Of a stretch of DNA of 57,766 bases, positions 20,975-44,456 are shown in pieces. Source of the stretch: Deltaproteobacteria bacterium (GTDB taxonomy: Bacteria; Desulfobacterota; Desulfuromonadia; Geobacterales; DSM-12255); contig JAJZTK010000007.1 in the NCBI GenBank assembly GCA_021849045.1, positions 1 to 57,766 of the forward strand. Reading direction: 5' to 3'. The position numbers and the translations under genes are program-made. Each line of letters begins with the position of its first letter. The first letter of the stretch is position 1. The notes under the pieces were generated by a model that did no database searches, was not told the origin of the DNA, and was given only the letters and a program-made list of their open reading frames with translations.

Positions 20975-21691
20975 TCAGTCTCCCCGGACATACTTTTGTC
21001 CTGCCTGCGTCAGGATTGCTCCACCGAATCCCACCAACAGCCATATGGGGTTTACCACTACCGTCAGGATGATGCCATCCAGCAGGGAAATCCCTGCCAG
21101 CATCATGGGGATTACGGGAATCGTAAAGGGGGTTGCCCTGTTGTTCTCATAACGGGCGACAAGACTTATGCAGACCACATAGACAAACTGGATACCTGCG
21201 GCGATCAATAGTATGGACGTAAGCGTACCGGTAACTGCCAGAGAGGTTACAACAAAGACGAGGAATCGGCAGGATGCCATCAATAGGACGCTGAACGGGT
21301 TCCGTTTGTGACTGATGTCATACCAGATAATTACAGCTATCAACAGGATGGCAGCATGGAATCCTTCCCGGTAAGGGGCTGACAGAAGCAAGGCCGCGCC
21401 GGCTGCAAAGAGCGTTATGGCAAGGAACAAGGCTCCTTTGGGCGAGACGTTGCCAGAAGGTATCGGCCGGGATGGGCGAGCAATCCGGTCATGTGTGGCA
21501 TCGCAGATGTCGTTCAGGCACATACCTGCCACGTAAAATAACGAGAGCGACAGTGCGGGAAGCAGATATCCCTTCCATGAAAACTGTCCGGCCCCGAGAA
21601 TATAGGCGCAGATGACGTTGGTCCATACAGTAGGCAGGTTAGTTATCCTGCAGAGATTGAGATATCCCTTTATGTTGGAGAGAATGCCCAC
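20975..21691 (-). CDS. eboC: UbiA-family prenyltransferase, EboC-like
   Basis: This 238-aa polytopic membrane protein has the first aspartate-rich motif NDICDATHDR near residue 59 and a second polar site (WYDISHKRNPF), as in UbiA prenyltransferases, which attach isoprenoid chains to aromatic or cyclic acceptors. The GTG at 21691 is chosen because GGGAG lies 5 bases upstream and the preceding gene's stop is only 2 bases away; a longer frame runs antisense-like through eboF and is rejected. It is the last gene of the ebo-type operon. The acceptor is unknown. In characterised ebo clusters the UbiA member is part of a system placing a metabolite outside the inner membrane. Confidence 0.85.
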   Translation of the reverse strand: MGILSNIKGYLNLCRITNLPTVWTNVICAYILGAGQFSWKGYLLPALSLSLFYVAGMCLNDICDATHDRIARPSRPIPSGNVSPKGALFLAITLFAAGAALLLSAPYREGFHAAILLIAVIIWYDISHKRNPFSVLLMASCRFLVFVVTSLAVTGTLTSILLIAAGIQFVYVVCISLVARYENNRATPFTIPVIPMMLAGISLLDGIILTVVVNPIWLLVGFGGAILTQAGQKYVRGD

Positions 21692-21693
21692 GA

Positions 21694-23064
21694 TTACTCC
21701 CTGAAGATATGGTCGAGCAGCAACCCATAGACATCGGTGGCCTTGACGGTGTCGGCATCGAGAAGTCGGGGTTCGCTGGTCATGAACAGGGGGCCGGTGT
21801 CCGGGGCATCCGTGACCCGTCCGTGTGATCCCTTTACCAGTGATGCGTCGAGCGGGATGACGTCCATCAGGTAACGGAACCCCAACATTTTTCTGGCCAG
21901 GGTGCCGGCGATTTTCAGGCGGGGGAACCTGATAGCCGGGTCGAGAAAGAGTTCGCACGGATCATAGCCGGGTTTGGCGTGGATGTTGACCGTGCGGGCG
22001 TAGTCCGGTGCCCGGGCATCGTCCAGCCACCAATAGTAGGTGAACCAGCTGTCAACGGAAGCGACCAGCACCAGTTCGCCGGAACGCTCATGGTTGAGGC
22101 CGCTGGCTTCTTTTCCTTCCCCATCCAGAATCCGCTCAACCCCCGGTACACTCCCCAGCAGTTCCCGGACTGCCCGGATATCACGCTGCTCCCTCACATG
22201 GATGTGGGCCACCTGGTGGTCGGCCACCGCAAAGGCCCTGCTGGTGGCCGGGTCAAGGTATTCCCGTCCCAGGTCCGTCTTCAGGGAGAGAAAGCCTGCC
22301 TGCCGCAGGATACGGTTGGGGTGAACGGGGCGGTTAACCGGGGTGATGCCGTATTCGGAGAGGAGGATGAGGCGGCAGCCACGCTCCCGAAAAAAATCGA
22401 TAAGACGGCCACAGAGCTGATCCAGTTCGGACAGGTCACGGGAAATGTCGCCATCCGGCCCCATCTTCTGCAGGCAGTAGTCCAGATGGGGAAGGTAGAC
22501 CAGTTGCAGGGTCGGCCGGTACTGCTCTTCTATGGCCATGGCGGCCCGGCCGATCCAGTCGCTGGAGGCGATGGTAGTTGCCGGCCCCCAGAACTGGAAC
22601 AGGGGGAACTGGCCGAACTCCCGGTTGAAGCGGTCCCGGAGGTCCGGCGGGCTGCTGTAGCAGTCGGGGAGCTTGCGGCCGTCGGCGCAGTAGAGCGGGC
22701 GGGGGGTCAGGGTGTAATCCGCATCGGTGGCCATGGCGTACCACCAGAAGGTGTTGGCGCAGGTAAAGGACGGGTCGCGCCGTCTCGCCTCGTGCCAGAT
22801 CTTTTCTCCCTGGACCAGCCGGTTGGACTGGCGCCAGAACAGGACCTCGCCGAGGTCGCGGAAATACCAGCCATTTCCGACGATGCCGTGACTGGCCGGC
22901 AATCGTCCGGTCAGATAGGTGGCCTGCACGGAGCAGGTCACAGCCGGGGTGATGGTCAGGATCGGGACGCTGGTCGCAAGCAGGGTGTTCAGATGTGGTG
23001 TCCGGCTGCCACCGAGCAGGGCGCGGGTGAGCCCCACGACGTTAAGGACGACGGTGCGCCGCAT
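21694..23064 (-). CDS. eboF: Alkaline-phosphatase-superfamily protein, EboF-like
   Basis: This 456-aa protein follows the type I phosphodiesterase/nucleotide pyrophosphatase pattern: the nucleophile position is Thr43 (VTCSVQATYLTGR), followed by LPASHGIVGNGWYF, and AVADHQVAHIHV near residue 280. Two metal-ligand sites look altered: the N-terminal Asp-Gly is Val-Gly (LNVVGLT), and the usual SDHGM is SEYGI. It may therefore use one metal, or bind rather than cleave. The start at 23064 has GGAG 7 bases upstream and overlaps eboE by 23 bases. It is part of the ebo-type operon. Confidence 0.83.
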   Translation of the reverse strand: MRRTVVLNVVGLTRALLGGSRTPHLNTLLATSVPILTITPAVTCSVQATYLTGRLPASHGIVGNGWYFRDLGEVLFWRQSNRLVQGEKIWHEARRRDPSFTCANTFWWYAMATDADYTLTPRPLYCADGRKLPDCYSSPPDLRDRFNREFGQFPLFQFWGPATTIASSDWIGRAAMAIEEQYRPTLQLVYLPHLDYCLQKMGPDGDISRDLSELDQLCGRLIDFFRERGCRLILLSEYGITPVNRPVHPNRILRQAGFLSLKTDLGREYLDPATSRAFAVADHQVAHIHVREQRDIRAVRELLGSVPGVERILDGEGKEASGLNHERSGELVLVASVDSWFTYYWWLDDARAPDYARTVNIHAKPGYDPCELFLDPAIRFPRLKIAGTLARKMLGFRYLMDVIPLDASLVKGSHGRVTDAPDTGPLFMTSEPRLLDADTVKATDVYGLLLDHIFRE

Positions 23065-24169
23065 CGGTCTGCTCCTTTAGCCAGGTTATCTCCCGGATGA
23101 TCGAGTCGGTCACGGTCCCGCTGCGGAGCTCCGGCGGGAGCACGTCCCAGGTGTAGGTCTCCACTTCCAGGAGAATCCCCTTGGGTAGGGGCGGCAGAAG
23201 CTCTTCGAGGAAGCGGCGGGTGGTGCCGGGTGTACCGGTTCCGGCCAGGAAGATCGGGACATGGAAGTGGCAGCGCCATTCATCGCCGCTTATCCGCCGG
23301 TGGCCGGCCAGGGCATTCGGCAGATCCGGGTACCTGAGGAGCGTACCATCCCGGCGGCGGATGACAACCTGATGCAGGTAGCACGGCTCATCATAGCTCC
23401 GCAGCATAGCGTCATCCGGATCGACAAGGCGGATGGCTGACGATGCCTGTACCTTGGCGATGGGAATGCCCGCTTCTTGCAGGCGGGAGAGGCATGTTGC
23501 CGGCTCTTCAAACTGGACCGCCTGATGGCAGCAATCCAGGCAGATCCCCAAGTGTAGCTGCAGATCGGGCGGAAATGCCATCTCACCGAAGAGCCGGCAG
23601 AGCTCGTCGGTCGTCTCCAGGATGCATGCCGGTTCCGGCTCCAGGGCCAGAACGATCCGTTTTCCGCGCTCCTGCATGATCCGGGAGAGATGGAGCAGAA
23701 CGGCATGCAACTGTTCCCTGACCAGGAGGAAGTCCTCGGTCAGAACAACCCCCTTGAACCCGATTGGGACGGTGGAGATGGAGCCGGTAATCCCTTCGGG
23801 GAGCAGGTTTGCCAGAAGATCGGCGAGGCAGGTGGTGTAGGCGGCCCGCTTGGGACTCCGCCAGTCGGGGAGGTAGACCTGCTCCTTGACCCTGTTGCCA
23901 TGGAATGAGCCATACGGAAAGCCGTTGATGGTCGGGACAAAGCAGCCATGGTCGCCGAGCCATGCCGAGAGCTGACCGGCGCCCGTGCCCGACAGTTCCC
24001 GTGCCGCACGGTTGGAGAGCCTGAGCCCGATCGGGAATGGGGTGTCGGGCGAGACTGCGGCCTTGACGGCAGGGATATGCCCGGCCAGGGCGGCAAAGGT
24101 CTCAGCCCAGGTCTCAGCGGGGTGGATGTTGGTACAGTAGGTGATCAGGCCGGGGTGAATTTCGGGCAT
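23042..24169 (-). CDS. eboE: TIM-barrel metabolite protein, EboE-like
   Basis: This 375-aa protein belongs to the sugar-phosphate isomerase/epimerase (xylose-isomerase-like TIM barrel) fold. The recognisable parts are LITYCTNIHPAETW at the start, LEPEPACILE, LGICLDCCHQAVQFEEP, which carries likely metal ligands, and a late VETYTWDVLP. This matches the EboE family named as metabolite-traffic proteins. The ATG at 24169 is chosen because the family N-terminus begins there; it overlaps eboB by 25 bases, and the ribosome site is weak, so translation is probably coupled. Substrate unknown. Confidence 0.83.
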   Translation of the reverse strand: MPEIHPGLITYCTNIHPAETWAETFAALAGHIPAVKAAVSPDTPFPIGLRLSNRAARELSGTGAGQLSAWLGDHGCFVPTINGFPYGSFHGNRVKEQVYLPDWRSPKRAAYTTCLADLLANLLPEGITGSISTVPIGFKGVVLTEDFLLVREQLHAVLLHLSRIMQERGKRIVLALEPEPACILETTDELCRLFGEMAFPPDLQLHLGICLDCCHQAVQFEEPATCLSRLQEAGIPIAKVQASSAIRLVDPDDAMLRSYDEPCYLHQVVIRRRDGTLLRYPDLPNALAGHRRISGDEWRCHFHVPIFLAGTGTPGTTRRFLEELLPPLPKGILLEVETYTWDVLPPELRSGTVTDSIIREITWLKEQTDAAHRRP

Positions 24170-24948
24170 TGGCTCATGAACGCACGGGGATTGTCGTAGA
24201 AGACCTTCTGGATCGACTCTTCCTGGTGCCCCCGCCGCCTCATCTCGTTGGCGCATTTCAGGACCGAAAGAGGGTCGCTGACACTCCAGTCGGCAGAGGA
24301 GTTGATGCAGATCCGTTCGGTACCATAGATTTCCACGGCGTCGATGGCCCGTTCCGGGCTCCCCTTGGAATTCGGATACAGGGTCAGTCCGAACCAGAAA
24401 CCGTTATCCTTGATCTCCCTGATAGTATGCTCCTCGGCATGGTCGATCAGCACACGGGCAGGGTCGATACGCGGCTCCGAGAGGATCATCTCCATGATGA
24501 TCCGCGTCCCCTTCAGTTTGTCTTCCAGGTGCGGGGTATGGATCAGGAGCAGCTCATTCCGGTCGACTGCCATGGCCAACTGCCTCTCCAGCACCTTGAT
24601 CTCGCTGCGACTGTTCTTGTTCAGCCCCACCTCGCCGATGCCGATGGCTGTCGGCCGGTCGAGGTATTCGGGCATGATGGACAGAACGTCTTTGGCAAGC
24701 TGCAGGTTCTCCGCCTCCTTGGAGTTGAGGCCGATCCAGCAGTAGTGTCTGATGCCGAACCGTGCAGCCCTGGTCGGTTCCGTGACCGTCAGTTGATGGA
24801 AATAATCCCGAAAGCTGTCTGCCGAATTCCTGTCGAACCCTGCCCAGAAGGCCGGTTCACTGACCGTGTGGATGCCGCTGATGGCAAGCTGCAGGTAGTC
24901 GTCAGTGGTCCGCGAGACCATATGGATATGGGGATCGATTGCCTTCAT
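24145..24948 (-). CDS. eboB: TatD-like metal-dependent hydrolase, EboB-like
   Basis: This 267-aa TIM-barrel hydrolase of the TatD/amidohydrolase type begins MKAIDPHIHM, whose H-x-H pair binds metal; further ligands are Glu in GIGEVGL, His in IHTPHLED and His in LIDHAEEH. TatD-like enzymes are phosphoesterases or amidohydrolases; in ebo clusters this member is EboB. GGAGGAGG precedes the ATG, which overlaps the upstream gene by 4 bases. No signal peptide, so cytoplasmic. Confidence 0.86.
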   Translation of the reverse strand: MKAIDPHIHMVSRTTDDYLQLAISGIHTVSEPAFWAGFDRNSADSFRDYFHQLTVTEPTRAARFGIRHYCWIGLNSKEAENLQLAKDVLSIMPEYLDRPTAIGIGEVGLNKNSRSEIKVLERQLAMAVDRNELLLIHTPHLEDKLKGTRIIMEMILSEPRIDPARVLIDHAEEHTIREIKDNGFWFGLTLYPNSKGSPERAIDAVEIYGTERICINSSADWSVSDPLSVLKCANEMRRRGHQEESIQKVFYDNPRAFMSQCPKFTPA

Positions 24949-25247
24949 TGCCCTCCTCCGTCCCAGGCACCCGCCGCCTTTAGTCCGACTGCCGACTCCA
25001 GAGGCTCGGTGGTCGGATCGCTGAACAGGGTCTGAATGGCGGCGGTGCGGCCTGTGGTATCGCTCGTGAGGATTTCCACGGCGCGCATGAATGCAGTGTG
25101 GCGGTAATCGTTCCGCGCCTCTTCCGCCCCTTGGTAACGATCGAGCCGGTCGAGGAAGGAAGCGATGTCGAGGAGCCTGGCACGATTTTCAATAAAATAC
25201 AACTCCAGGATTTCTCGGGCATTCAAGGGCTGGTACGGAGGCGCCAT
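24945..25247 (-). CDS. Unrecognised 100-aa protein inside the ebo operon
   Basis: This short protein begins MAPPYQPLNAREILELYFIE and contains two helix-rich segments (RLLDIASFLDRLDRYQ and TAFMRAVEILTSD) and a conserved-looking LFSDPTTEPLE. It has no signal peptide and no metal-ligand motif. It occupies the position between eboD and eboB, where eboA stands in some clusters, but EboA is usually more than twice as long and I see no similarity. GGAG lies 7 bases upstream of the ATG. One base separates it from eboD, and its stop overlaps eboB, so it is certainly coexpressed with them. It may be a small subunit or regulator of the pathway. Confidence 0.75.
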   Translation of the reverse strand: MAPPYQPLNAREILELYFIENRARLLDIASFLDRLDRYQGAEEARNDYRHTAFMRAVEILTSDTTGRTAAIQTLFSDPTTEPLESAVGLKAAGAWDGGGQ

Positions 25248-25248: not shown

Positions 25249-26442
25249 TTATTTCTCCAGTGTTTTCAATGGGTCCAACTCCCGGTTCGGGGGATCCAAT
25301 TTTCGGACAGCCCGTTCAGCAAGGTGGTTTATGCAGCGCTTCATCAGTGGGATGTCGATCTCGTGCGCCTCGATCTTCCGACCGATCCCCTTCAGCAGAG
25401 GGATGGAGAGCTCCCCTCCCAAGTGTTCCTGAAACTCCCGCAGCGCCTTACCTACGTCCAGCCAGGCGAGGGCAGGGTGGTAGAGGGCAAAGCCGAGCTC
25501 TTCGAGCAGCGTCAGGATGCGATGGAGTTCCAGTTCGCTAAGGAGCCCCCGGTGGCGAGAATAGAGGGAGTCCAGGGCAATGCCGATGGCCACGGCCTCG
25601 CCATGCCTGATCTCCCCCTTGACCAGCTCTTCAAGCTTGTGGGCTGCCCAGTGACCGAAATCCAGCGGGCGGGACGAGCCGCTCTCGAACGGGTCGCCGC
25701 CGGTGCCGATGTGCTGAAGGTGCAGTTCGGCACAGCGGATGATCATCTGTTCCATGGAAGGCTGGGCGAAGCGGGCAAGGCCGGCCCGATCAGCATACAG
25801 CGTATCGAAGAAGGACCGGTCCCGGATGAGGGCCACCTTGACCGCTTCGGCAATACCGGCGCGCAGATCGCGCTCCGGCAGGGTTGCCAGGAACTGGAAG
25901 TCGTTGATGACCGCAAAGGGGGGGGCAAAGGTTCCGAGAAAGTTTTTTCGGCCAAAGGCATTGACCCCGTTCTTTACCCCGACGCCGGCGTCATTCTGGG
26001 CCAGCACCGTGGTCGGCAGACGGATCAGGCGAATCCCGCGATGTGCGGTGGCCGCGGCATAGCCGGCAACGTCCAGCACAGCGCCGCCGCCGATGGCGAT
26101 GATGAAAGAATGGCGACAGAGGTTGTGCCGCTCGACGAGAGAGTGGATCTGCTGTACCTCCACTGGCTCGTGTTTGCAGATTTCTCCCCCCCGAATAACG
26201 ACCGGCGGGGCGACGAATTCCAGCAGCGGGCTTTGCCCATCACCGAAGCGGCTGATCTGCTCCAGGAGCGTAGGGTTCTGTCCGGCAACCTCGCTGTCGA
26301 CAACCACCAGTGCCCGATTGTGCGGACGCCCCCCTTGCCTCACCACGTCGGCCAGGACCGGGTTCCCCGTGTCGAAGGCGTTCCGGGTGAAGATGACCGG
26401 GAAATCGTAGGTTACGGTAAATCGTTGCCGTATGGTATGCAT
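25249..26442 (-). CDS. eboD: 3-dehydroquinate synthase-like cyclase, EboD-like
   Basis: This 397-aa protein of the dehydroquinate-synthase superfamily has the NAD-binding IAIGGGAVLDVAGYAAA, LPTTVLAQNDAGVGVK, catalytic/metal residues in GIAEAVKVALI (Glu, Lys), and the two histidine sites DFGHWAAHKLE and IRHGEAVAIG. It is too diverged to be the housekeeping AroB. Relatives cyclise phosphorylated sugars to cyclitol or quinate-like rings, and EboD is the ebo member of this family. The start may be 26442 or 26448; GAGG is better spaced for 26442. It begins 35 bases after the secreted toroid gene and leads the ebo block. Confidence 0.85.
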   Translation of the reverse strand: MHTIRQRFTVTYDFPVIFTRNAFDTGNPVLADVVRQGGRPHNRALVVVDSEVAGQNPTLLEQISRFGDGQSPLLEFVAPPVVIRGGEICKHEPVEVQQIHSLVERHNLCRHSFIIAIGGGAVLDVAGYAAATAHRGIRLIRLPTTVLAQNDAGVGVKNGVNAFGRKNFLGTFAPPFAVINDFQFLATLPERDLRAGIAEAVKVALIRDRSFFDTLYADRAGLARFAQPSMEQMIIRCAELHLQHIGTGGDPFESGSSRPLDFGHWAAHKLEELVKGEIRHGEAVAIGIALDSLYSRHRGLLSELELHRILTLLEELGFALYHPALAWLDVGKALREFQEHLGGELSIPLLKGIGRKIEAHEIDIPLMKRCINHLAERAVRKLDPPNRELDPLKTLEK

Positions 26443-26476
26443 GACCATCCGCCTCGGAATCAGGGACTGAAGACGC

Positions 26477-27634
26477 CTACAGGCCGCGGTGGAGGATCTC
26501 CAGGGTTATTGTTGCATAGGACGTCACGAGATTGGGGTCCTTTTCCCACCATCGGCCGGTCGGGTTTACCCAGGAACCATCTTCGCGCTGCAGGTCGAGG
26601 AGTCTTTTGGCAAGATCCTGACGCCAGTTGACCTTTTTCCCGTCCTTCATGGTAAGGGTGTCGACACCGGCCGCCGAAAGTGCCTTGGCCATGGTGTGGT
26701 AGTAATAGTACAGACCCTCCTGCTTCATGCCGGGGTTTTCGTCAATGGTATAGTTCTTCGAGAGCCAGTCGATGACCGCCTTGACCCGTGGGTCGTTCTT
26801 GTCCACCTGGGCGTAGATGAAGCTGAGGAGTCCGGCATAGCTCATGCTGCCGTAGGAGCGGAGCGCGGTTTTCCCGTCCGCGAGCTTCTGTTCTCCCGCC
26901 TTGCTGTCGGCCGGAAAATAAACAAACCCTCCCCTGTTGGCCGGGTCGTCGCTGGTCCAAGGCTGGTCGTTGGTTGCCTTCAGGTTCTGCGTCCGGCTGA
27001 TGAACTGGATTGCCGCCTTCCAGTTCAGGTCCTTGGCGTCCGGGTCGTTGGCCACGTCGCTCTTCAGGTAGCGGGTGTAGTAGAGCGCTTCCAGGGCAAA
27101 GGTGGTATTGGCCAGGTCCGAGTGTTTGTAGCTGCCGCCGTAGCCGATGCCGCCGTTTAGATGGTCGTTTTCCCCGAGGTTGTCCTGCAGGCCGATCAGG
27201 AACTTGCGCCCTTTCTTGAGGAGCGGTTCGTAGGCCGGGTTGTTGGCCATCAGGAGCGCCATCATGGAGATGGAGGTGTTGTAGTTGGCCAGGTCCTTGC
27301 CGTAGATGCCGCCGTCCGGCTTGGCGCTTTTCACGAGGAAATCATAGCCGGACTTTACGTTCTTCTCGTATTTGTTCCGATAGAATTTTGACGGATCACC
27401 CTGGAAGGCGGTCAGGGCCAGGGCGGTCAGGGCCGGGTATTCAGCCTGGGCCCAGAAACCGCCTGCCTGCTGCTTCGCTGCCAGCCAGGTGAGCCCCTTG
27501 CCGATGGCGTTTTCGAGTTCAAGCTTCAGCGAAAGGTCGGGTTTTGATTTTGCCACGACCTTTTCGGCGGCGACCGAAAAAAGGGGGAGAGAGAACAACA
27601 GGGCAGACATCATTGCAATACACAATTTCTTCAT
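26477..27634 (-). CDS. Secreted squalene-cyclase-like (alpha/alpha-toroid) protein
   Basis: This 385-aa protein has a cleavable signal peptide (MKKLCIAMMSALLFSLPLFS) and then repeated alpha/alpha hairpins with QW-like motifs, for example WLAAKQQAGGFW, YDFLVKSAKPDGGIYG and LLDLQREDGSWVNP. This is the prenyltransferase/squalene-oxidase repeat fold. The catalytic DXDD of squalene-hopene cyclases is not seen, so it may bind rather than cyclise terpenoids. AGGAGAG precedes the ATG. It lies 18 bases after the YdjY-domain gene and 35 before eboD. Its C-terminal part resembles a domain in the 3,090-aa protein nearby. Confidence 0.78.
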   Translation of the reverse strand: MKKLCIAMMSALLFSLPLFSVAAEKVVAKSKPDLSLKLELENAIGKGLTWLAAKQQAGGFWAQAEYPALTALALTAFQGDPSKFYRNKYEKNVKSGYDFLVKSAKPDGGIYGKDLANYNTSISMMALLMANNPAYEPLLKKGRKFLIGLQDNLGENDHLNGGIGYGGSYKHSDLANTTFALEALYYTRYLKSDVANDPDAKDLNWKAAIQFISRTQNLKATNDQPWTSDDPANRGGFVYFPADSKAGEQKLADGKTALRSYGSMSYAGLLSFIYAQVDKNDPRVKAVIDWLSKNYTIDENPGMKQEGLYYYYHTMAKALSAAGVDTLTMKDGKKVNWRQDLAKRLLDLQREDGSWVNPTGRWWEKDPNLVTSYATITLEILHRGL

Positions 27635-27652
27635 AGAAAAAGCTCTCCTTTC

Positions 27653-28393
27653 TTACCGTGCAACCTTGATGGAGACAGTTACCGGCGTGCCGACCGGGGG
27701 TACGGTTTTTTCATTCACAAACCAGATCTTGTCGCTTTCCCCCCCGGTGGAAGCGTTGTCTATCATGGCTGCAGGAACATGCAAAACGGCGATGATGGAA
27801 CCGTCAAGCTGGGCGGCGAACCGGCCGCCGAAAATGACTGATCCGGTGTATACCCAGGAAAGCCCCTGGATGCTCTCGTTTTTTCCGTTAACGATTTTTG
27901 TCATCCACGATTCCGGTGGAACCGTTTTCCCGTCTTTCAGGGTCACGGAAATTGCTACTCCCATACCGTTAGGTGTTTCCGGTGATCCCTGGAAGGCAAG
28001 GGGTGTCTTTGTCGGTTCCAGCCCCAGAAGCAGGCAGGCCACCTGAATATTGTACGGTTCAATCCTGGTGCGGAGCAGGCTTTCGTGGGTCTTCCCACCG
28101 GTTCTCACCAGGACGTATTCCAGAAGTCCCTTGTCCATATTTACTTCTGCCGGGAAAGAAACGGATTTTTCTGTTTTGTTTATGATGATCTCACCAACCC
28201 TGTAGATACCCGGTGATACGGGCTCCACGGAAGATATTTTCATGGTGTGGCGATCTGCCGCATCCGGCGGCGCAGGAGGTACGGGCATGTCCGGCGGCGG
28301 CATGATTACCGGTTGTGGCGAAGAGACCGGTTGGGCGTACAACGCCGACCATCCGGAAAGCATGATGACAACAGATATGATCAAGGTTTTCAT
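27653..28393 (-). CDS. Secreted YdjY-domain protein
   Basis: This 246-aa protein has a signal peptide (MKTLIISVVIMLSGWSALYA), a proline-rich spacer (VIMPPPDMPVPPAPP), and then the YdjY-type domain, recognised by KSVSFPAEVNMDKGLLEYVL and GKTHESLLRTRIEP followed by NIQVACLLLGLEP. The family is of unknown function, often found in secreted proteins. It appears to be the first gene of the operon that continues into the toroid gene and ebo genes: a terminator closes the previous gene about 80 bases upstream. GGGAGG lies upstream of the ATG at a rather long distance. Confidence 0.78.
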   Translation of the reverse strand: MKTLIISVVIMLSGWSALYAQPVSSPQPVIMPPPDMPVPPAPPDAADRHTMKISSVEPVSPGIYRVGEIIINKTEKSVSFPAEVNMDKGLLEYVLVRTGGKTHESLLRTRIEPYNIQVACLLLGLEPTKTPLAFQGSPETPNGMGVAISVTLKDGKTVPPESWMTKIVNGKNESIQGLSWVYTGSVIFGGRFAAQLDGSIIAVLHVPAAMIDNASTGGESDKIWFVNEKTVPPVGTPVTVSIKVAR

Positions 28394-28472
28394 TGTGGTA
28401 GAGGCCTCCCTTGTTTCCCATAGGTTAAACTAGATTGTGTCACAGTCGGAATCGTAGTCAATCCCTGTAAGC

Positions 28473-28497
28473 AAAAGGCGGGGGTTATCCCCCCGCC
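28473..28497 (-). terminator. Terminator after the PEP-CTERM gene
   Basis: On the minus strand GGCGGGGG pairs with CCCCCGCC around a short ATAA-type loop and is followed by TTTT. It separates the PEP-CTERM/giant-gene transcript from the YdjY-ebo operon, whose start is about 80 bases downstream. Confidence 0.82.
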
Positions 28498-28534: not shown

Positions 28535-29236
28535 CTAACCGTTGCGCCGCCTTTGCACGTAAACCGCGAGTCCGGTCAGTGCCGAACCGAGCAGGACAAG
28601 GGTTGAAGGCTCCGGAATAGGGTTCCCACCGCCGATGCCGCCACTCTCGATCTTCAGGTCACTGGTAAAGTAGACGGAATCGTTAGCGCCATAAGCCTCA
28701 AATTGGCCAATATAAAATAAAGACGATGCCGGTGCATCACTGGCAGTGAAATAGAGGGTTGCCGTTTTGCCGGGATTGAGGTTAAATTTCCAACCCATCC
28801 CCACGGCTACATCGTCCGGTTGTTGCGCAGTTGTAATCCGATTCCCCGTCGTAACGTCGATTGTGCCGATCGTGTTATCAAATCCAGCCGTTCCCTTAAA
28901 ATTGGCATGAAGATCGCCAATCCAATATCCCGGCTCGTCTATCTCCCACGACTGGCCTGCTTTGACTGAATTGAAGGTCTGTCCATACTCATTGAAAAAT
29001 CCGGTTGTCATAAGGCTCAGGTCCAGGTCGAAAAACGAACGAACATCATAGGCACCGGCTGCTGTAAACGTGAAAGTCCTCGTACCAAACCCGGTTATCG
29101 AGTCGATGCCAGTCGTAGCTACGCTGACTCCGTTTACTGAAAACTCGACCTGGGTATTCGTGGGTAGTGCCAGCGCCTGGGCCGCTGATAAGACAAATAA
29201 CAGGCTTGTAATTATCGCAATCAATCTCACCTTCAT
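28535..29236 (-). CDS. PEP-CTERM sorting-signal protein
   Basis: This 233-aa exported protein has a signal peptide (MKVRLIAIITSLLFVLSAAQALA), a beta-rich middle, a glycine-rich break (GGIGGGN) and a C-terminal PIPEPSTLVLLGSALTGLAV followed by YVQRRRNG. That tripartite tail (PEP, helix, basic end) is the recognition signal of exosortase, which cuts the tail and releases or relocates the protein during exopolysaccharide export. No exosortase is in the window. GGAGGG lies 7 bases upstream of the start. It is 65 bases behind the giant gene, with a hairpin between them. Confidence 0.9.
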   Translation of the reverse strand: MKVRLIAIITSLLFVLSAAQALALPTNTQVEFSVNGVSVATTGIDSITGFGTRTFTFTAAGAYDVRSFFDLDLSLMTTGFFNEYGQTFNSVKAGQSWEIDEPGYWIGDLHANFKGTAGFDNTIGTIDVTTGNRITTAQQPDDVAVGMGWKFNLNPGKTATLYFTASDAPASSLFYIGQFEAYGANDSVYFTSDLKIESGGIGGGNPIPEPSTLVLLGSALTGLAVYVQRRRNG

Positions 29237-29285: not shown

Positions 29286-29301
29286 AAGTGTTATCTGACT
29301 G

Positions 29302-32300
29302 TCACAACAGCGCCATCGGCTTACCGGATACCACAATGGAACTGCAGTAACCAGGGGCTGCCGGGGCCAGCGACTTCTCGATCCGGTACCAGTAGGTGGT
29401 GCCGTTGGTCAGACCGGTGTCCACGAAGACCGGATAAAGATTGGTGTATCCACTCCTGATTTTTGTGAAACCGGAAGACGGACCTGCCGTACTGCGGTAA
29501 ATGTCGTACAGTGTGGTCGGCGTATGCTCGGTTGCTGACCAGTTAAGCTGAACCATGCCCGTTTTTGCCCTTGCAGAGAGTGAGGTCAGGCAGGTCGGGA
29601 TGCTGACCATAACCACGGCCGTATTGGAACCAGTACCGCCACCATCGTCCTTTACCGTGACGGTTACGGTATACGATCCCTGCTGTGCGTATGGGTGGCT
29701 GAGTGCGAACGTCTTGTCCGGATTGAGCGTTAGCGGCTGAACTCCCGTTCCGTCACCGTAATCGACGGTTGCCACCCAGCTGTTCTTTCCGGGGTCTGTG
29801 AACGAGCCAGCGGAAATGAATGCCCCACCGGCGTTGATTGATGCGCCAGGCCCGGCATTGACAATCGGCGCGACGTTATTCACCGTGACCAGGGCGCTGC
29901 CTGAGCCAATGCCGCCATCCTTGTCCGTCACGGTGACGGTAACCGTATAGCCGCCGTATCGCGGATAGATATGGCTGAGAGCAAAGGTCTTGCCCGACAG
30001 TGGCAGCGGCTGGACACCGGTCCCGTCGCCATAGTCGACGGTAGCTGTCCAGGTATCCGCGCCAGGATCGGTAAAGGAGCCGGAAGCGGTGTATGTTCCT
30101 CCTTCATTTAGGGTGACCGGTGACAGCGGATTCACTGCCGGCGGCACGTTCAGCACGGTTACCGTGGTGGAGGCAGTGGACTCCAATGCCCCATCGGACA
30201 CTTTGAGACGGACCGTAAAGACGCCATTGTCAGGGCGGCTGAAAGACGGCTTTGCTCCTGCGGTTTCAAAGATGCCGTCATTGTCCAGATCCCAGGCATA
30301 GGTGAGCGGGTTGCCGTCCAGATCGGTCGAAGCGCTGCCGTCCAGCTGTATGGTGCTTCCTTCATTCACCGTATACGGCCCGCCGGCACTGGCCACCGGC
30401 GGGTGGTTGAGCTTGATGGTGATGGTCGTCCACTTCGTATCGGACAGTTTCTGGTTGTTAGGGCTCAAGACACCGTTATCGTAGACCTGCAGACCGATAT
30501 TGTACGTGCCGGGGCTGTTCCAGGTATAAGTCGGCTTGGCGCCGGTGGCATCGGCGAAGTTGTACGGATAGACGTTGTCGAGTTCCCAGCCGTACGATGT
30601 TATGAAGTCGGTCGGATCGATATCGTAGGATTTGCTGCCGTCCAGCTGTACCGGAATCCCGGTGTAGCCGACATACGGCCCGCCAGGGTTGGCAATGGGG
30701 GGATGCGGCGGCACTGCGACGATGACCGTTATGGTGTTGGTGTCGTACTTGGGCGGAACATTGTTATCGGTTACCCGCAGGGTGACCTTGTAGGTCCCGA
30801 GCTGCGCGTAGGTATGGGTTGCGGTCGGCTGGTCGCTGCTGGAGTCATAGATGCCGTCGCCGTCAAAATCCCACTCGTACTTGACGATCTTCCGGAACGG
30901 GTCGAGATGGTACGACTTGGACCCGTCGAAGGTCAGGGGCCAGTTGATCCCCCATACCATGTTGTTGCCGGCTATGGCCACCGGAGGCAGCACGAACAGG
31001 GTCTTGGTGAGGATGATGACCCCCCAGGCGGTCCTGAAGCCCCCCTCCACCCACTTGGACCCGCCACCGCCGGTGAACATCCCGTTGGCGTCCTGCTGAT
31101 TCACGATGGTGCGGGCCACGCCACGGGTCGGGTCGTTGTACCAGTCGATGGCGTTGGCGGTCCCCTCGCCGAGGATTGTTATCTCCTTAGGTTTTGCTGT
31201 TCGCATCGCCTTGGCAAGGGCGTACAGGGCGTAGTAGTTGCCGGTGCCGTTGTACCAGTTGTTCCAGTAGGATGCGAGGAAGTTTTCCGCCTGTTTCCAA
31301 CGGGAATCGGTGGTAGGGATCTTATCGAATGCCACCTGGGCAAGTCCCGAAGGGGTAGTTGCCTCGCCATTGCCAGGACCGGCATAGCCGTAGCCGTTGC
31401 CGTCCCCATTGCGGCTGTAGGCGAGCCAGACAATGTTCCTGTCCCGCACCCATTGGGGCACCTTGATCCAGCTCTGCTCCTCGGCGGCCTCGAGTCCGAG
31501 GGCCGCCCACTGGCTCGCCGAGTTGTCTCCCTGACCCTGCCAGCCGTAGCGCCAGCCACCTGCACCGTACCCCCACTCATCGTCGCCCTGGCCCCAGTAA
31601 TACATCTCGGCCATATCTTCGACGATGTCGCGGTATGTTCTGCCCATAATGCCGGCGCCGCCGATCGGTGCCTTCATGTTCGGCGTTCCCGAGGCGACCA
31701 GGGCCATCATGACCTGGCCCCCCTGATAAATGGGGTTCCCGTCGACCACTTCGATACCGATGCCGTTGCCGTTCTGGTCAGGGTCTCCGTATGCCTGATC
31801 CGTTATGGCAGCCTGGCGGATGGATTTAAGCATGGCGCTCATCCCGCGCCAGACATCCTCAACATAGGGGTCGTTGCTAAAGTCGCCGATTTCCAGATGT
31901 CCGTTGATCTCCATTGCATGGAGAGCGGACGCCGTTGGGGATGAGTAGTAGCTGCTGTATCCTGACCACCGACCGTCGGTTGCCCCTCCGGTTCTGTCCT
32001 GGGATGTGTGGATATACCAGAGTGCATCGTCGATGGCCTTGTTCACCTCGACATTCAGAGTTTTCGGCCGGACGATGATCGGGAAGGTGTCGGATGAACT
32101 CTTGCCGTCAGCGTCGGTGACCGTGATACGGGCGGTGAAGGGGGTCCCGTCCATAGCGGTATAGGTATGCTTTGCCGAGAGGTTGTAGCTGTCGGTAACG
32201 GTGGCAGGGGCCGAGGATGTGCCGTCTCCAAAGTTCCAGCTGTAGGTGATCGGGGCCCTACCGGACTTGACCACGGCCTTCAGGGTGACCTCTGCGCCGC

Positions 32301-35300
32301 TCCAGGTATCATGAGGCACTTCCAACCCGCCGGAAATCTGCCAGGGGAGGGTGATGACCAGTGGATCACTGCTGACTGTCAGGGTGGAGGAGGCAATGCT
32401 TGACTGTCCCGCGCCGTCCCTTACGGTCAGTTGTACCGGCAAGACCCCTACTGCCGTGGGGACGACGACCGGTTTTTCTCCGTACAGTATCTGTTGTCCA
32501 TTGGTAAGAGATAAATTATCGATGACAAACGTGCCGCCGTAGTAGGAGACGCCGGCCTTGAATGTGGCAGATGCAGGGACATAGTTTGAATCATAGACAA
32601 GTATCCAGGTGGGAGACGAAGCCTGTTTGTAGTAATATTTCGCCCCGCCGATCCCTCCGTTGTACGACGTTTTCAGTTCCACTTTCACATCATACAGTAC
32701 GTTCAGCGAGTAGGACCCTCCCTGGACACGATAGCTGCCATTTTCGTAAATCTGGAAGGTTCCATTGGCAAAGTAGAGCGCGTACGGCATCTGATCGTAG
32801 CTGAAATTGGTGTTCGTGTTCTTGAAGCCGAACATTAGATACCCGTCGGCGGTTTGTATGACCTGACCGGTGACGACCGCAATCCCGTCGAGGGGGAAAT
32901 CATTCTTACTGAACAGGTAGCGTGAGCCCCAGCCGCCACCGCCGGTTAGTGTCACTGCACCGTTCTGGGTCACTCCTGATGCAGGGAAGAGCCAGTTGGC
33001 CGTATCGATGACCGTTCCGGTGAAACTGTCCTTGAGCAGGCTGTTGGCCGCACCGACAGCCCATTCGTAGCTCGCGATCCCGTAATCATCCGTAGAGCCC
33101 GACCCATTGAGTCTGACCGGGACCCCCACATTGGATTTGTAAGGTCCACCGGCATTGGCAACAGGCGGATTACCGACAACAACGGAAACAGCGGCGGTGG
33201 CGGTGGCGGTCTGGAGAGCCGTATCCGGTACCGTCAGGGTGACGGTGTAGCTGCCTGTGGCGCTGTAGGCATGGACAGGTGTCGCCCCTTTCCCGGTGGT
33301 GCCGTCACCGAAATTCCAGCGGTAGGAAAGGATGCCGGTGTTGTCAGTGGAGGCTGAACCATCAAAATTTACAGGGGTATTCGGTTCAGTAACATACGGG
33401 CCGCCGGCGTTGGCTGTCGGAACTCCGGTCCCTACGACGGATGTCGTGGTCGTGGCGGTACTGGACTGGTTGGCGTGATCCGTTACCTTCAGTGACACCG
33501 TGTAGGTTCCCGGAGTAGCGTAGGTATGGGGTGTGATCTTGGTTGTCGCCACTGGGGACCCGTCGCCGAAGTTCCACTCATATTTCCAGATCCCCACGTC
33601 ATCGGTCGATGCGGAAGCATCCGCATTAATGGTCCAGTGCCTGTTGACGACCAGATTTTCGGTGACGTTGTATGGACCGCCGGTGTTGGCGACAGGAGGG
33701 GCGTTCCCCTTTGTTGTCACGGTGGTGGTCTTCGTGTTGCTCTGCCCGGACCTGTCGGTAACGGTGAGGGTAACGGCGCGGGTGCCTACGCCGGTATAGA
33801 TGTGAGACGGTTTAACCCCGGTTCCGGTAGCACCGTCGCCGAAGTCCCAGCTGTAGAACTCGATTCCGGTATCGTCGGTGGAACCGGAGCCATCGAAGTT
33901 GATGGTCCAGGTATTGGCATTTGCCTTGGTCTCGTCCTGTACGTACGGGCCACCGGGATTTGCAACCGGCGGATTCCCTTTGATGGCCGATACCGTGGTT
34001 GTGGCAGTCGCTTTCTGACCCGCCTTGTCGGTAACCGTCAGCTTCACATTGTAGGTACCTTCAAGATAGATGCGGGTCGGTTTCGCTCCGGTCATGAACG
34101 AATTGACCTTGAGGTTGTCGAACTTGGCGCTCGTGCGGTACGTGGAGAAGCCGACCATGCCATTGCTGAACTCGGTCGCGTAGCCGTAGTCGATTGCCAG
34201 AGAGTCGTTCACATAGAGCCGGATTTTGCTGCCGTATGCCTCGATCTTCAGGTGATACCAGACATTGTTCTGGATCGCGAAGGGGAGATAGTATTGGGCA
34301 AGTTGTGCAAATCCCCCGTTTTGCTGACGGTACAGCAGCACGTCGTTGATACCGCGCCCTCTGAGAATGAATTCGTAGTGGTTGTTCGCATCAGCGCCGC
34401 GAAACAGGAGCTGGGCCTCCTGACCCGTTCCGGATAACAGCATCACATCCGCCTCAATGGTGTAGTCACCCGATTTCGGGCTGCCAGTGAAGGTGTCGGT
34501 CCGGTCGACGTTGATGTCGCTCTGCAGGTAGGCACCTCCGCTTACGCTCCATGCCCCCCCCGCAGGGGTCCAGCCATTGGCATTGCCGGCGTTGAAGTTG
34601 TCGTAGAGAGGGGCCTCCATCTCCCACTCATACGACACGATGCCGTAATCGTCGGTGGAGGCTGAGCCGTCGAGGTTCACCGTGTAACGGCCGCCGGTGG
34701 CGCTGGCCTCGCCCACCAGATACGGCCCGCCGGCGTTGGCGACCGGTGGATTCCCCTTGACGATAACCTGGGCGGAATCCGTGTTCTTTTTGCCGTTGTT
34801 ATCCGTCACACTCAGCGTTGCCAGGAAACGACCCTCGGTTGCATACGGATGGGTCGCCAAGGCGCCTGTGGTCGAGGTGCCGTCGCCGAAATTCCAGTTG
34901 TAGGCCGTAATGGTGCTTTTCGGATCGTACGAGTATGAACCGTTCAATATTGCGTTGGCTCCAACAGCCACGGTCTGGCTCTTTGGCTGTGCATCGGCAA
35001 CCGGGAAGCCGGCAGCCCTGTTGCTGGTGGGAGGAGCAGATACGGCAAGCAGGGTTCCGCGTGTGGCGGCTGGGCTGATCGCCGTACGGGGGCCGAAGGT
35101 GCCGTTGCCGTTTCCGGGATAGAACCATAGCTTGTTGTTGGAGCCGTAATTCCCCATGACAATATCGACGTTCCCGTCATTGTTGAGGTCATAGGCGTCC
35201 ATTGAGCTGTAGTATTTGTCGTTATTCAAAGAGGGGACCAGCACCCCGGGCTGGAAGGTGCCATCGCCGTTCCCCTTGAAGAAATAGGCATCGCCGTTCG

Positions 35301-38300
35301 AGCTGCCGCTGACGATGATGTCCGGCTTGCCGTCGTTGTCGAAATCGGCCGCTGCCAGGGCGTAATTGTCACTTGCCGACGTCGTGGCGGTACCGATCTT
35401 GGCCCCGACAAATTTCCCTGTCCCGTCTCCAGTGTATACCCAGACGTCGTTGGTTCCTGATAACGATACGGCAAAATCGAGGTTGCCATCACCATTGAAG
35501 TCGGCGACATCGAGGCCGCGGCCGTAATAGGGAAGGGTTATGGTCGAACGGGTGAACCCGCCCTTGCCGTCGTTGATGAATACGGCGAGGACGTTACTGT
35601 TGCCATTGGCGATGAAGTCAGGCAGTCCGTCGTTGTTGAAGTCGCCGGCAGCCATGTCCATGATATAACCACCAGGGTTTGGATGGGTTGCGACTATCCC
35701 TTTGTTGATGAAATTGTCGTTGCCGTCATTGAGGAACAGGAACAGGGAGCCGTCGCCGCGGCCGGCAATGAAGTCGAGGTAGCCGTCGTTGTTGAAGTCT
35801 TCGATGGTGATGCCGCGTGAATAGTAGCTCCCCAGATAGTCCAGGGTCCGGTAGTTGCTGAAGGTGCCGTCGCCGTTGCTCTTGGCGTAGTAGATCCAGG
35901 AGGCGTCGTCGATGCCGAGGACAAAGCTCTTGGACCAGTTGTCCGGAGTGGCCGGATTGCAGTCGTCGTCCTTGCCGTTGTTCGGGATCTCCTTCATACC
36001 CGGGTTGATGAACGGGTTGGCGTCGTTGCAGTCGAGACCATTGGCGACATAGCCGGCAGGGGCCAGGCAGGCCAAGATCGTGTTGTGCGGATCACCGAAG
36101 CCGTCGCCATCGGCATCGCGGTAGTAGGTCGTCTTGTTGTTGCCTATCGTGGGGTCATGGTCGTTGCAGTCGAGATTGTTGGCCACATAGCCGGCAGGCG
36201 CGGAGCAGGCGATCACCCAGACGTTCGGATCACCGAAACCGTCGCCGTCGGCATCGCGGTAGAATTTCTGCGTTGCCGGGCCGATCAACGGATTGCTGTC
36301 ATCGCAGTCGAGGTTGTTGGCCACATAGCCGGCAGGTGCGGAGCAGGCGATCACCCAGACGTTCGGGTTTCCGTAGCCGTCATTGTCGGCATCGCGGTGG
36401 AATTTCTGCGTTGCCGGGCCAATAGCAGGATTGCTGTCGTTGCAGTCGAGGTTGTTGGTCACATACCCCGCTGGCTGCGAACAGGCCAGGGTGGTGATGT
36501 TCGGATTACCGAAACCGTCGCCGTCGGCATCGCGGTAATAGGTGGTCATAGTCGTCGGGTCACTGGGGTCGCAGTCTATGTACATGGTGACAAGTCGCCC
36601 GTCGATGGCTGCCCTGTTGTTCGGCTGATTGTCACGCACTGCCACCATGACGCGCTTTGTCCCCTTGGTGTTTGCCGGGGGGGTAAAGGTGAAGCTGGTG
36701 CCGGTGCCGGCAGAGACGCCGTCAACCGTCCACTCGTACGTCAGAGGCCCCCCTTCCGGATCGATGGCCGTCACGCTGAGGGTGAGCGGATGGAGTACGC
36801 TGGCCCGCGGGTTCGTTTCTGACGGCGAGAAGGAGGTGATGACCGGCGGCAGGTTGCCGGCGGTAATGGTTACCTTGGCATAGCCGATGGAGCTGTTGCC
36901 GGCCGGGTCGGTCACCTTGAGCCCGATCAGGCCGGTGAAGGGCTTGTTCCAGGTGTAGAGGACCACCTTGCCGAGAGCATCGGTGAATATGCCGTCGCCG
37001 TTCAGGTCCCAGGCATAGGTGAGGGTGACCCCCACATCAGGATGGGTCGAGAGACCTCCGTCAAGGGTTATCTGGGAGCCGGTCACACCGGTGTAGGGGC
37101 CACCGGCACGGGCGGTGGGATAGTGGGGCGTGAAGTCTTTAACCATCGTGGCCATGGCTGTCTGGGCATTGGTGTTTGCCGTCTGGATCGCGGCAATGGT
37201 CTGATCTGTCTTCAACACCAGGGTGTCGATTGAATTGCCGAGGGTGTAGTTTGCCGGTGGAACGGCCATCACCTTGGTGTAGTCGACGAGCAGGGCGATA
37301 CGCGCATCGCTGAAGCCGACAGCCTTGAGAGATGCGATTTCCTCCGGGGTGATGCCGGTGGTGTTCATCCGGTCCTTGAGGGCCTGCAGCCCGCTCACGT
37401 CGATGACCTTGTCCGCCATCCCCTGGGTGATGAGCACCGCTTTGAGGTTCAGCAGGTCAGCCTTGTAGTCCGCAAGATTGGCGGCCAGCAGGTCGCCATA
37501 GCTCCTGGCGGCCTCAAGCTGACGGTAGGCGAACTCATAATTGGTGACCGCTGCGGCGCCTTGGTACTTCTCGTAGGACTGGCGCATCGCCTTGACCAAT
37601 GCCCCCTGTTCGATACCCCGGTTGGCAATCCTGATCAGTGCAGCCTCGCGCGGGTTGCTGCCGAGCGGTTGGATAGGATAGGCATCCGGATAGGTGCCGG
37701 GAATCGAGGTGGCCTTCAGTTCAGCCATGATTGCAGCTGTATCGAGTGGAGCGAATACTTTGAAGTTGGCATCCGGCGGGTCGGCAGCAAGGTCGGCCCA
37801 ATGTTTGGCCATGTTGCCGTATATGCCGCTCGCTTTCTTTGGAGTGCTGTTAGGATCATAGCCGCCGATCATCTCGGTTGCATAATAGATCACCCAACCG
37901 TTGTAATCGGTAGGGACACCCGTAAAGTGGCTGACGACGCCGATTGCTGCGCCGATGACATCTCCTGACATGAGGCTTAACCCGATACTGGCGGCGTCTA
38001 GGATCGCCATGGCATCGTTCCATTGCTGAATGGCGTTTGAGTATCCCATCCCAATGCTGTTTGCGGCATTCTTGAGCGGCGACATATCAACGGGCGGATG
38101 CCCCAGGTCAACAACTTCGAAGGCCCACCCCGGTCCGGGGTTCTCGACCGTTTCCCATGGGTCCAGCTTGGCGTTCTGGTTCGTGTCCATGATCAGGTCG
38201 AACCTGCCCACCTTGACTTTCGGCGGCAGGGCGATCACCTCATCAAAAAAGGCTCCGCCGAGTAACATGCTGCAGATCCTGTTCGGTACCCCCATGGCGT

Positions 38301-38574: not shown

Positions 38575-38929
38575 GGCCATCTCCTTTCTGGAGTCCGCAA
38601 CAGCAAACTGAGTTCGTTTGGCAAGCCATGTACGGTACGGCTAAAATTACCGGCGTTGAACGCACTTTGTAAGTCAGGCGCTTTCTGCGGGCGCATCCCC
38701 TCGACCAAGCAGGTCGGTACAGCGAGTGCCTTCTTTTCTGGGGTCGCGTAAAAAATGACTACAGTTCTCCTTTAATTAGAGACGCAACTTGCGTGCCCAT
38801 GTGTAACACTTCTAAATGATTGGTGTTTTTCTTCGCGTGGCGACGGGTGTAAATATTATCGACATCAGGAAAGGTGGTGGTCACAGTTTTTCTTGTTGAA
38901 TTTGTTAAAAAGTAAATGATATTTGAGTG
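38575..38929 (-). other. Leader and promoter region of the giant gene (355 bases)
   Basis: No gene is visible between the batD stop and the giant gene start. It contains a sigma-54-type promoter (separate entry) that predicts a leader near 200 bases. Within the leader, CGACC/GGTCG around 38702-38716 and a GCGC-ended stem around 38680-38695 can fold. I do not recognise a known riboswitch; in particular the GEMM c-di-GMP core is absent. The half next to batD is AT-rich. Confidence 0.5.
38783..38798 (-). promoter_or_regulatory. Sigma-54-type promoter of the giant gene
   Basis: On the minus strand GGGCACG (38798-38792), four bases, then TTGCG (38787-38783) matches the consensus TGGCACG-N4-TTGCW with the diagnostic GG-N10-GC spacing. 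Start would be near 38773. Sigma-54 needs an enhancer-bound activator; two are encoded in this window, but any link is unknown. Confidence 0.62.
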
Positions 38930-40255
38930 TTATCTCGGAAGGTGGTCGGGATGGAGTACGGATTGCATCAGGGAGAGGTCTGCCCGCATCTCTTCTTCCC
39001 GGGGGACGAAGCGGCCGAACCTGATCCGGTCGCACCGGGTGAAGAGGTGCGTCAGCGCCACAGACTGGTTGGACGGGGTGTCAGGGGGGGGCGGCTGGAG
39101 ACCGGTAACAGCGGCGGGAGAAATGTTGCCTTCAACTCCAACCAGCTCCTGCAGGAGCCGAAATAAAACCGTGTAAAATTTTTCGACATCACCATCAATC
39201 AATGACTGTTCTAACCTGGCAAGGGATTGCTTGATAGAGGGTGGCACCGCAACGGCCCGCTCCCCGGAAGGTATTATAACGGCGTGTCGCCGCAAGGATA
39301 GGGTCATACAGATAGCAACCGTCAGGCCAATAAGGGCGATAAGCAGCATAAGGGCAGATGCCCCCTGGACGTGGGAGGGAACTGACGAAGCAGGGGGAAC
39401 AGGGGCGGTTGTAGCCGCATTCCGTCCGGACGAAGGGGCAACATCCGGCAGGTTCTGCCGCAGAGTGCAGTACCGGCCGGGTTCGGGGTCGAAATAGCTC
39501 CAGACAACCGGGGGAAGGTGGCCGGCAGCAGCCGGAATAACAACCTGCTCGCAGACGAGACCTTTGTCCTTGTTCCTGACCGTGGGGGGGTAGCTGCGGA
39601 GATTGTCCCCGGCTATCCGGGGGCAGCGGGCACTGTTCAAGGTGCCGGCGCCGCTGATGGTGGTGGTAATGGTCAGGGGATCGCCGGGGGATGGCGTCTC
39701 GGGACTGCTTGTCGCCTTCATGGAGAAGCTGCCGATGGCGCCGCTGAAGGAGGCTGGCCGGTCAGCCGGCAGCGGTAGTACGGTCAATGTCACCGGTGCT
39801 GTCACCAGGGACTGCGGCCGCGGTTCGATGGCACCGAAAAACGCGTCGCTCCCTTTGGCGGCCTCTATGATCTCCAGATCGAGGCTGGCCGGCCCCACGG
39901 CCAACTGTCCCGGTGTGATGCTGCTGATCCGGCCCGAAAAGCGATATAGCGCAACATTCGGGTCGCTGGCGTCGGCATCCTGAACCGGCGGAGCGAAGGC
40001 GACCGAACCGCCAGCGGGTGCGGCAAGGCGTGGGTAGCCGATGTTGCGCACTCTGACGTCGCTGACCCGGAGGGTTACGGTTACCGGCACCGATTCTCCC
40101 GGATAGATTTTCTCCCTGGCGAGCTTCAGCTCGAGCGAAACCGCCGCAGCCGCGTTAACGAAGAACCCGGCGGCCAGCAGCAGGGCCGTGCCGATACAGC
40201 GCCAGATGGTTGCGGCGCGCAGGAGCAACCATATGTTGAACGGCGGCCTGCTCAT
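38930..40255 (-). CDS. batD: BatD-like oxygen-tolerance protein
   Basis: This 441-aa protein has an N-terminal signal/TM segment (LLLAAGFFVNAAAAVSLELKL), periplasmic beta domains of the BatD type (REKIYPGESVPVTVTLRV, then PGDPLTITTTISGAGTLNS), a second TM near residue 300 (ALMLLIALIGLTVAICMTLS), and a cytoplasmic helical tail. The ATG at 40255 follows AGGA and starts one base after the batC stop. It is the last gene of the MoxR/Bat operon. The family is tied to envelope stress and aerotolerance, but its molecular job is not settled. Confidence 0.85.
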   Translation of the reverse strand: MSRPPFNIWLLLRAATIWRCIGTALLLAAGFFVNAAAAVSLELKLAREKIYPGESVPVTVTLRVSDVRVRNIGYPRLAAPAGGSVAFAPPVQDADASDPNVALYRFSGRISSITPGQLAVGPASLDLEIIEAAKGSDAFFGAIEPRPQSLVTAPVTLTVLPLPADRPASFSGAIGSFSMKATSSPETPSPGDPLTITTTISGAGTLNSARCPRIAGDNLRSYPPTVRNKDKGLVCEQVVIPAAAGHLPPVVWSYFDPEPGRYCTLRQNLPDVAPSSGRNAATTAPVPPASSVPSHVQGASALMLLIALIGLTVAICMTLSLRRHAVIIPSGERAVAVPPSIKQSLARLEQSLIDGDVEKFYTVLFRLLQELVGVEGNISPAAVTGLQPPPPDTPSNQSVALTHLFTRCDRIRFGRFVPREEEMRADLSLMQSVLHPDHLPR

Positions 40256-40256
40256 T

Positions 40257-41992: not shown

Positions 41993-41993
41993 G

Positions 41994-44454: not shown

Positions 44455-44456
44455 GA

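Follow-up and report, generated by a model that had tools for sequence, protein, structure and literature searches.

A secreted YdjY–toroid pair that accompanies ebo genes and may be an exported partner module of their pathway

Why do two secreted proteins, one of them folded like a squalene cyclase, stand at the head of an ebo cluster, a set of genes widespread among bacteria? One chemical proposal for the ebo product comes from Yurchenko and colleagues. Their paper, in the excerpt available, proposes an isoprenoid-cyclitol and describes eboG as well as inserted genes that were not analysed (PMC5133447). In the available excerpt of another study, ebo mutants retain the scytonemin monomer in the cytoplasm, ebo is tied to the periplasmic transfer of this monomer, and the proposed product is a prenylated cyclitol-type carrier (PMC6282210). 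We analysed a stretch of 57,766 nucleotides (the window) from a 4.33-Mb draft genome of 271 contigs, whose near relatives are Geobacter-type bacteria. The features that matter here are given in order of transcription.

38930..45449, minus strand: Bat-type operon encoding MoxR, DUF58, two VWA proteins (one of them BatA), a TPR protein and a BatD-like protein (Pfam; the last named by position alone, with no family match)
29302..38580, minus strand: giant protein of 3092 aa with PKD and FG-GAP repeats (Pfam)
31006..32061, minus strand: second toroid-like domain, aa 2174–2525 of the giant protein (toroid profile, whole-protein E 5e-7)
28535..29236, minus strand: PEP-CTERM sorting-domain protein (PF07589, 23.5 bits; TIGR02595)
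28480..28493, minus strand: terminator-like hairpin followed by GCCTTTTG, between the PEP-CTERM gene and YdjY (consensus match)
28434..28461, minus strand: promoter-like site 5' of YdjY, TTGACT-16-CACAAT, 9/12 matches (a consensus match, which is not evidence of function)
27653..28393, minus strand: YdjY-domain secreted protein, 246 aa (NF040466, E 9.4e-41, 139.5 bits, cut-off 50)
26477..27634, minus strand: secreted alpha/alpha toroid, 385 aa (Pfam PF13243 SQHop_cyclase_C, E 2.1e-6, 27.4 bits, cut-off 26.1)
25249..26448, start probably at 26442, minus strand: eboD, sugar phosphate cyclase-like (NF004852, 568.7 bits, cut-off 333)
24945..25247, minus strand: orf100, a small conserved reading frame, probably eboG (by position; relatives have it too, placed between eboD and eboB)
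24145..24948, minus strand: eboB, TatD-like hydrolase (TatD_DNase, PF01026, 34.3 bits)
23042..24145, minus strand: eboE, TIM-barrel protein (NF035939, 422.9 bits, cut-off 250; the reading frame extends to 24256, the family match starts near 24145)
21694..23064, minus strand: eboF, type I phosphodiesterase (PF01663, 200.4 bits; named from gene order and family)
20975..21958, minus strand: reading frame of eboC, UbiA-family prenyltransferase, with the domain from about residue 95–111 (PF01040, 70.2 bits)

Set beside the published ebo cluster (eboA–F, with an eboG variant), the window contains eboD, eboB, eboE, eboF, eboC and a small gene at a position that eboG may occupy, whereas no eboA was recognised in it and two exported proteins stand at its head that the available excerpts of PMC6282210 and PMC5133447 do not describe as ebo. 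The assignments differ in firmness: eboC scores 84 bits against the EboC equivalog NF035940, under the cut-off of 250, and orf100, which matched no family in the profile libraries searched, is probably eboG by its placement. Relatives of orf100 with 38–42% identity precede eboB at the Verrucomicrobial loci L055, L056 and L061.

The N-termini of both head proteins combine basic residues at the start with a hydrophobic stretch and an A-x-A-like site, and we read them by eye as signal peptides, in agreement with the first-pass annotation, which had described two signal-peptide proteins in these reading frames. It had also given spacers of 18 and 35 bases. The YdjY–toroid gap is indeed 18 nt, but the toroid–eboD gap depends on the start chosen for eboD: 34 nt with the ATG at 26442, whose GAGG is better spaced, and 28 nt with the one at 26448. 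The terminator that it placed before the pair is matched by the hairpin and short T run listed above, and among the listed consensus matches there is no terminator-like or promoter-like site on the minus strand between YdjY and eboD. Consensus matches of this kind occur in the region 20500–29400 at 13 against 7.6 expected (terminator-like) and 6 against 3.8 expected (promoter-like). By eye, a hairpin followed by CTTTT also lies 5' of YdjY in the related loci L013 (where the YdjY start used is a guess), L015 and L016, and the picture is unclear in L014, L018 and L021. Ebo-linked relatives with the same gene order have gaps of -4 to 30 nt between YdjY and the toroid and of 7 to 162 nt between the toroid and eboD, with starts chosen by script; the exceptions are L022, L080 and L081, where YdjY does not adjoin the toroid. 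The simplest reading is that a single transcript probably runs from YdjY through the ebo genes, as had been proposed from the letters of the window.

The first-pass annotation had passed over the upstream neighbours: the PEP-CTERM protein, the giant PKD protein and the Bat operon. The toroid-like domain of the giant protein went unreported in the Pfam search; when seven such domains were aligned against the small toroids, hhalign returned a probability of 99 and an E-value of 5.8e-18. Large PKD proteins at L015–L019 have a similar domain (whole-protein E<1e-3 with the toroid profile), and weaker matches occur at L014, L021 and L022. Bat-operon matches are found at L014, L017, L018, L020, L021 and L022, and also at L080, L081, L083 and L084, some of which are the same genomes as the L014–L022 set. 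The PEP-CTERM protein adjoins YdjY in the window, a placement that recalls ScyD–F, which accompany ebo in scytonemin-making cyanobacteria according to the available excerpt of PMC12188702. That excerpt links exosortase and PEP-CTERM proteins to late steps of scytonemin synthesis and describes exported PEP-CTERM proteins beside ebo in the Nostoc scyDEF locus, with ScyE needed for a late periplasmic step; in the window, the toroid and YdjY take the place of those exported proteins.

If the pair belongs with ebo, the arrangement should not be peculiar to one genome. In a set of 58 genomes that includes the host of the window, the toroid occurs in 11, twice in one of them; eboD follows it in 12/12 copies and YdjY precedes it in 10/12 (within 4-kb loci). 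Across 141 genomes of the order, we found EboE in 20 (19 over the cut-off and one, G072, in pieces), the full-length toroid in 14 (of 18 genomes with a toroid match, the four whose match is weak and partial, G035, G093, G094 and G097, E 1e-13 to 6e-5, were excluded) and YdjY in 29. Full-length toroids are present in 14 of the 20 EboE-positive genomes and in none of the 121 EboE-negative ones (Fisher 5e-15). In all 14, some 2 to 14 kb separate the toroid from an EboE gene of the same contig, and YdjY is inside the cluster, directly upstream of the toroid in 12; in G043 and G055, YdjY instead lies between eboB and eboE, preceded by the genes for the giant PKD protein and the PEP-CTERM protein. 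EboE occurs without a toroid in six of the 20 genomes. Four of these have a plain eboD-orf100-eboB-eboE-eboF-eboC series (whole by tblastn in G022, G026 and G039, partly in pieces in G072), and in G057 and G067 eboE sits in a reduced setting. The order therefore has ebo clusters both with and without the exported module. A neighbourhood survey had been suggested as a check on the pairing; its outcome is that YdjY, toroid and ebo recur together, and this recurrence is stronger than the window alone could reveal.

Scanning a single genome of each species gave 38 loci, which extend the picture beyond the order. At L013–L022 the toroid stands together with ebo genes, and at L023, from a proteobacterial MAG, a YdjY–toroid pair accompanies eboB-, eboC- and eboF-like genes, with no match for eboD. 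At L024–L050, from Verrucomicrobia and two Planctomycetes, tblastn detected no ebo gene in the flanks searched. Of the 23 Verrucomicrobial loci with more than 1 kb of upstream sequence (L033 and L042, which are cut off, are left out), 19 have YdjY upstream of the toroid; in the 18 Verrucomicrobial loci where it could be measured, the spacing is 2–58 nt or an overlap of 4. Neither of two planctomycete loci has YdjY there. It is absent upstream at L031, L044, L047 and L050, also by profile at E 10, in searches that recovered it at three control loci (L024, L045 and L081). Since YdjY and the toroid stay together without nearby ebo genes, the pair is a unit of its own. The genomes behind L024–L050 encode EboE all the same, in 24 of the 26 searched (23 over the cut-off; the genome of L041 was left out).

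Two of the loci are oddities. L019 has at 9372–13337 a second, decayed ebo copy in which the matches to YdjY, toroid and eboD cover the greater part of each and eboB, eboE and eboC are fragments. L017, in a MAG labelled Hydrogenophilales, has YdjY-toroid-eboD with a toroid of 73% identity, and EboE was not found in its genome; we read this locus as a transfer or a misplaced contig.

The Verrucomicrobiota offer a setting in which gene linkage and co-occurrence come apart. Among 194 genomes, EboE is present in 66 (one of them, G290, under the cut-off), the EboD model over its cut-off in 66 (65 in common), the toroid at E<1e-50 in 80 (of 90 toroid genomes, the 10 whose E exceeds 1e-50 are left out) and YdjY in 70 (60 over the cut-off, some in longer frames). 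We take NF004852 to be the EboD model because it accompanies EboE in 65 of 66 genomes; EboD and EboE keep company to this extent though other ebo genes often went unrecognised near EboE in 20 Verrucomicrobial or planctomycete regions (L051–L070). Toroids occur in 63 of the 66 EboE genomes and 17 of the 128 others (both 63, toroid only 17, EboE only 3, neither 111; Fisher 4e-31), and the counts against the EboD model are identical. Judged by gene positions, no more than 10 kb separates toroid and EboE in three of the 63 double-positive genomes (G186, G295 and G323), and the distance is 43 kb in G176; in the others the toroid is on a different contig, which in a draft may be a neighbour, or more than 280 kb off. 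Genomic linkage does not explain the co-occurrence in Verrucomicrobiota, and co-occurrence of genes that are mostly unlinked argues for a common function.

Because related genomes are not independent, we repeated the comparison on a LepA protein tree (one gene, midpoint root, draft genomes) of 140 of the 194 genomes, drawn from about 150 full LepA among the matches listed, with ten that have neither EboE nor toroid left out; 14 EboE genomes and 21 toroid genomes are absent from it. By parsimony, EboE changes 14 times on the tree and the toroid 11 times. Dependent evolution of the two was favoured over independent evolution (LR 42.2, p 1.5e-8), in a test whose result a small number of events can sway; the largest LR among 60 independent trait pairs simulated at the fitted rates was 12.9. 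Other pairs on the same tree gave LR 31.3 (EboE and YdjY) and 76.4 (toroid and YdjY), and the close tier of YdjY-adjacent toroids alone, which includes the split match in G265, gave LR 11.6 (p 0.02). YdjY adjoins the toroid in 15 of 15 genomes with toroids of 460 bits or more, and stands mostly apart from the more distant Verrucomicrobial toroids, which were not counted throughout. Regions around distant-tier toroids and around YdjY showed no common neighbour (20 regions, 10 genomes), in a comparison where reading frames were called by a simple procedure that lost the toroid or YdjY gene itself in several regions. Three distant-tier YdjY regions (L225, L227 and L229) have two unnamed gene families in common.

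Planctomycetota are weak support at most, because toroid paralogues blur the family there: 185 of 199 genomes match the toroid at E<=0.001. At E<1e-50 the toroid is present in 150 genomes, and EboE, counted at E<1e-25, in 132 (154 match at E<=0.001 and 129 are over the cut-off). The two are associated, with 116 genomes that have both, 34 with the toroid alone, 16 with EboE alone and 33 with neither (p 2e-8), but the association fades as the toroid threshold tightens: p is 0.004 at 1e-80 and reaches 0.12 at 1e-100. These counts cover the order, Verrucomicrobiota and Planctomycetota; ebo itself was studied in Cyanobacteria, Bacteroidota and Pseudomonas.

What kind of protein is the toroid? An AlphaFold2 model built from 39 sequences (pLDDT 85.8) has the alpha/alpha fold and matches (VIA) squalene-hopene cyclase (SHC; 2sqc, Z 25.3, 3.2 Å over 282 residues), 8pak (25.2), SsDMS (24.5), a cellobiose 2-epimerase (23.1), MstE (22.7), GH76 (22.3) and AprG (21.9); the class II terpene cyclases SHC, SsDMS and MstE share the fold at Z 22.4–25.3. 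By sequence profile the nearest PDB relative is SHC (E 3.8e-17), which, with the Pfam match, bears out the earlier description of a squalene-cyclase-like toroid. The profile alignment places the D-V-D-D motif of SHC, and that of SsDMS at residue 303, onto D173-L174-A175-N176 of the window protein. Across 39 members, positions 173 and 176 are always D and N, and position 175 is S in 26, A in 7, N in 2, D in 2, T in 1 and V in 1. The middle Asp of DxDD is thus missing in 37 of 39 toroids and kept in two, and the third is replaced by Asn in all. The middle Asp has the catalytic role in SHC and is the residue mutated in the D303A and D303E entries of SsDMS. Its loss argues against cyclisation of the DxDD type, and by its sequence the toroid is a diverged SHC relative without that Asp.

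Among 45 residues invariant in the 39 members, 25 are polar or Tyr, including D107, Y111, Y118, T120, N217, R259, Y261, Y266, N300, Y311, K317, R361, E364 and Y373; if they sit in the cavity where the fold would put them, they point to a polar ligand. Beside SHC, SsDMS and MstE, the window toroid therefore differs in having a signal peptide, D-x-(mostly S or A)-N for DxDD, and largely polar invariants. The idea that the product is bound because it is prenylated is not supported by these observations, to which the presence of the same fold in sugar enzymes adds. The broader proposal of a periplasmic binder or modifier of an exported prenylated product is supported as to a periplasmic partner, through recurrence and co-occurrence, and unsupported as to recognition through the prenyl group.

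YdjY is harder to place. Its AlphaFold2 model (pLDDT 89.5) consists mostly of strands, and neither its fold (Foldseek best E 0.25; VIA best Z 3.0) nor its sequence (best E 0.25) has a convincing match in the PDB. Residues E92, H103 and E104, invariant in 29 aligned rows, may serve as a functional lead only. E. coli YdjY belongs to the same NF040466 family, and E. coli is alone among 14 control genomes in having it; unlike that protein, the window YdjY adjoins a toroid.

As an exported pair that follows ebo across genomes, YdjY and the toroid fit best as a periplasmic handler of an exported product, which agrees with the periplasmic export attributed to ebo in the available excerpt of PMC6282210. 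We put at about even the chance that the two form an exported partner module serving the ebo pathway. In this model Ebo enzymes of the cytoplasm and membrane would make a small molecule, prenylated and cyclitol-type in the published proposals, that reaches the periplasm, where the toroid, aided by YdjY, would receive or modify it, probably through its polar headgroup. On this evidence the toroid likely binds or modifies the exported product in the periplasm; we infer that YdjY and the toroid touch, that the ebo product is the ligand and that its polar part sits in the pocket. More tentatively, ebo may make a carrier, either diffusible or linked to lipid, that has a cyclitol headgroup, and YdjY and the toroid would together be its dedicated periplasmic receptor. 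The toroid, a former cyclase now acting as a binder or a new enzyme, would take the headgroup, and YdjY would aid its release or its transfer to surface proteins, for example the giant PKD-toroid proteins.

The pair and ebo might instead merely have hosts and niches in common and, in the Geobacter group, travel as one moving block with no direct functional link. We think this unlikely: the block is so tightly clustered in the order that its 14 genomes are not independent, and Planctomycetota show little specific association, but in Verrucomicrobiota correlated evolution appears between mostly unlinked genes with the tree accounted for, and YdjY is still within the cluster in G043 and G055 despite their altered order. 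A rather doubtful reading, though not a fanciful one, is that the toroid acts on or binds carbohydrate, serving exopolysaccharide or surface glycans while ebo serves the same surface trait indirectly. Cellobiose 2-epimerases and GH76 match it almost as well as cyclases do, by fold similarity only, its invariants include Tyr, Asn, Asp and Arg, and PEP-CTERM and PKD proteins adjoin the pair, yet sequence profiles retrieve cyclases and not glycosidases.

Least probable, in our judgement, is a role as a class II (meroterpenoid) cyclase in the periplasm, where the toroid would cyclise the prenyl chain that EboC attaches, much as MstE does for prenylated dihydroxybenzoate. SHC, drimenyl-diphosphate synthase and MstE are among its best fold matches, the neighbouring EboC is a UbiA prenyltransferase, and the EboC-type enzyme Ubi-297 farnesylates 8-hydroxyquinoline-2-carboxylic acid (8-HQA) in the available excerpt of PMC9235831; the replaced Asp residues of the motif speak against it, although another acid is possible, given that D109, MstE's own acid, cannot be aligned on the toroid.

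A search of open-licence literature found no paper that links YdjY or a toroid with ebo, and the exported partner module looks new to the literature searched. A pair that tends to co-vary with ebo in two bacterial groups gives a handle on what the pathway makes. A soluble exported partner is easier to purify and check for a ligand than a membrane prenyltransferase pathway and, if the partner module is real, the ligand of the toroid would identify the ebo product, and the toroid would be a case of the squalene-cyclase fold put to a different use outside the cytoplasm.
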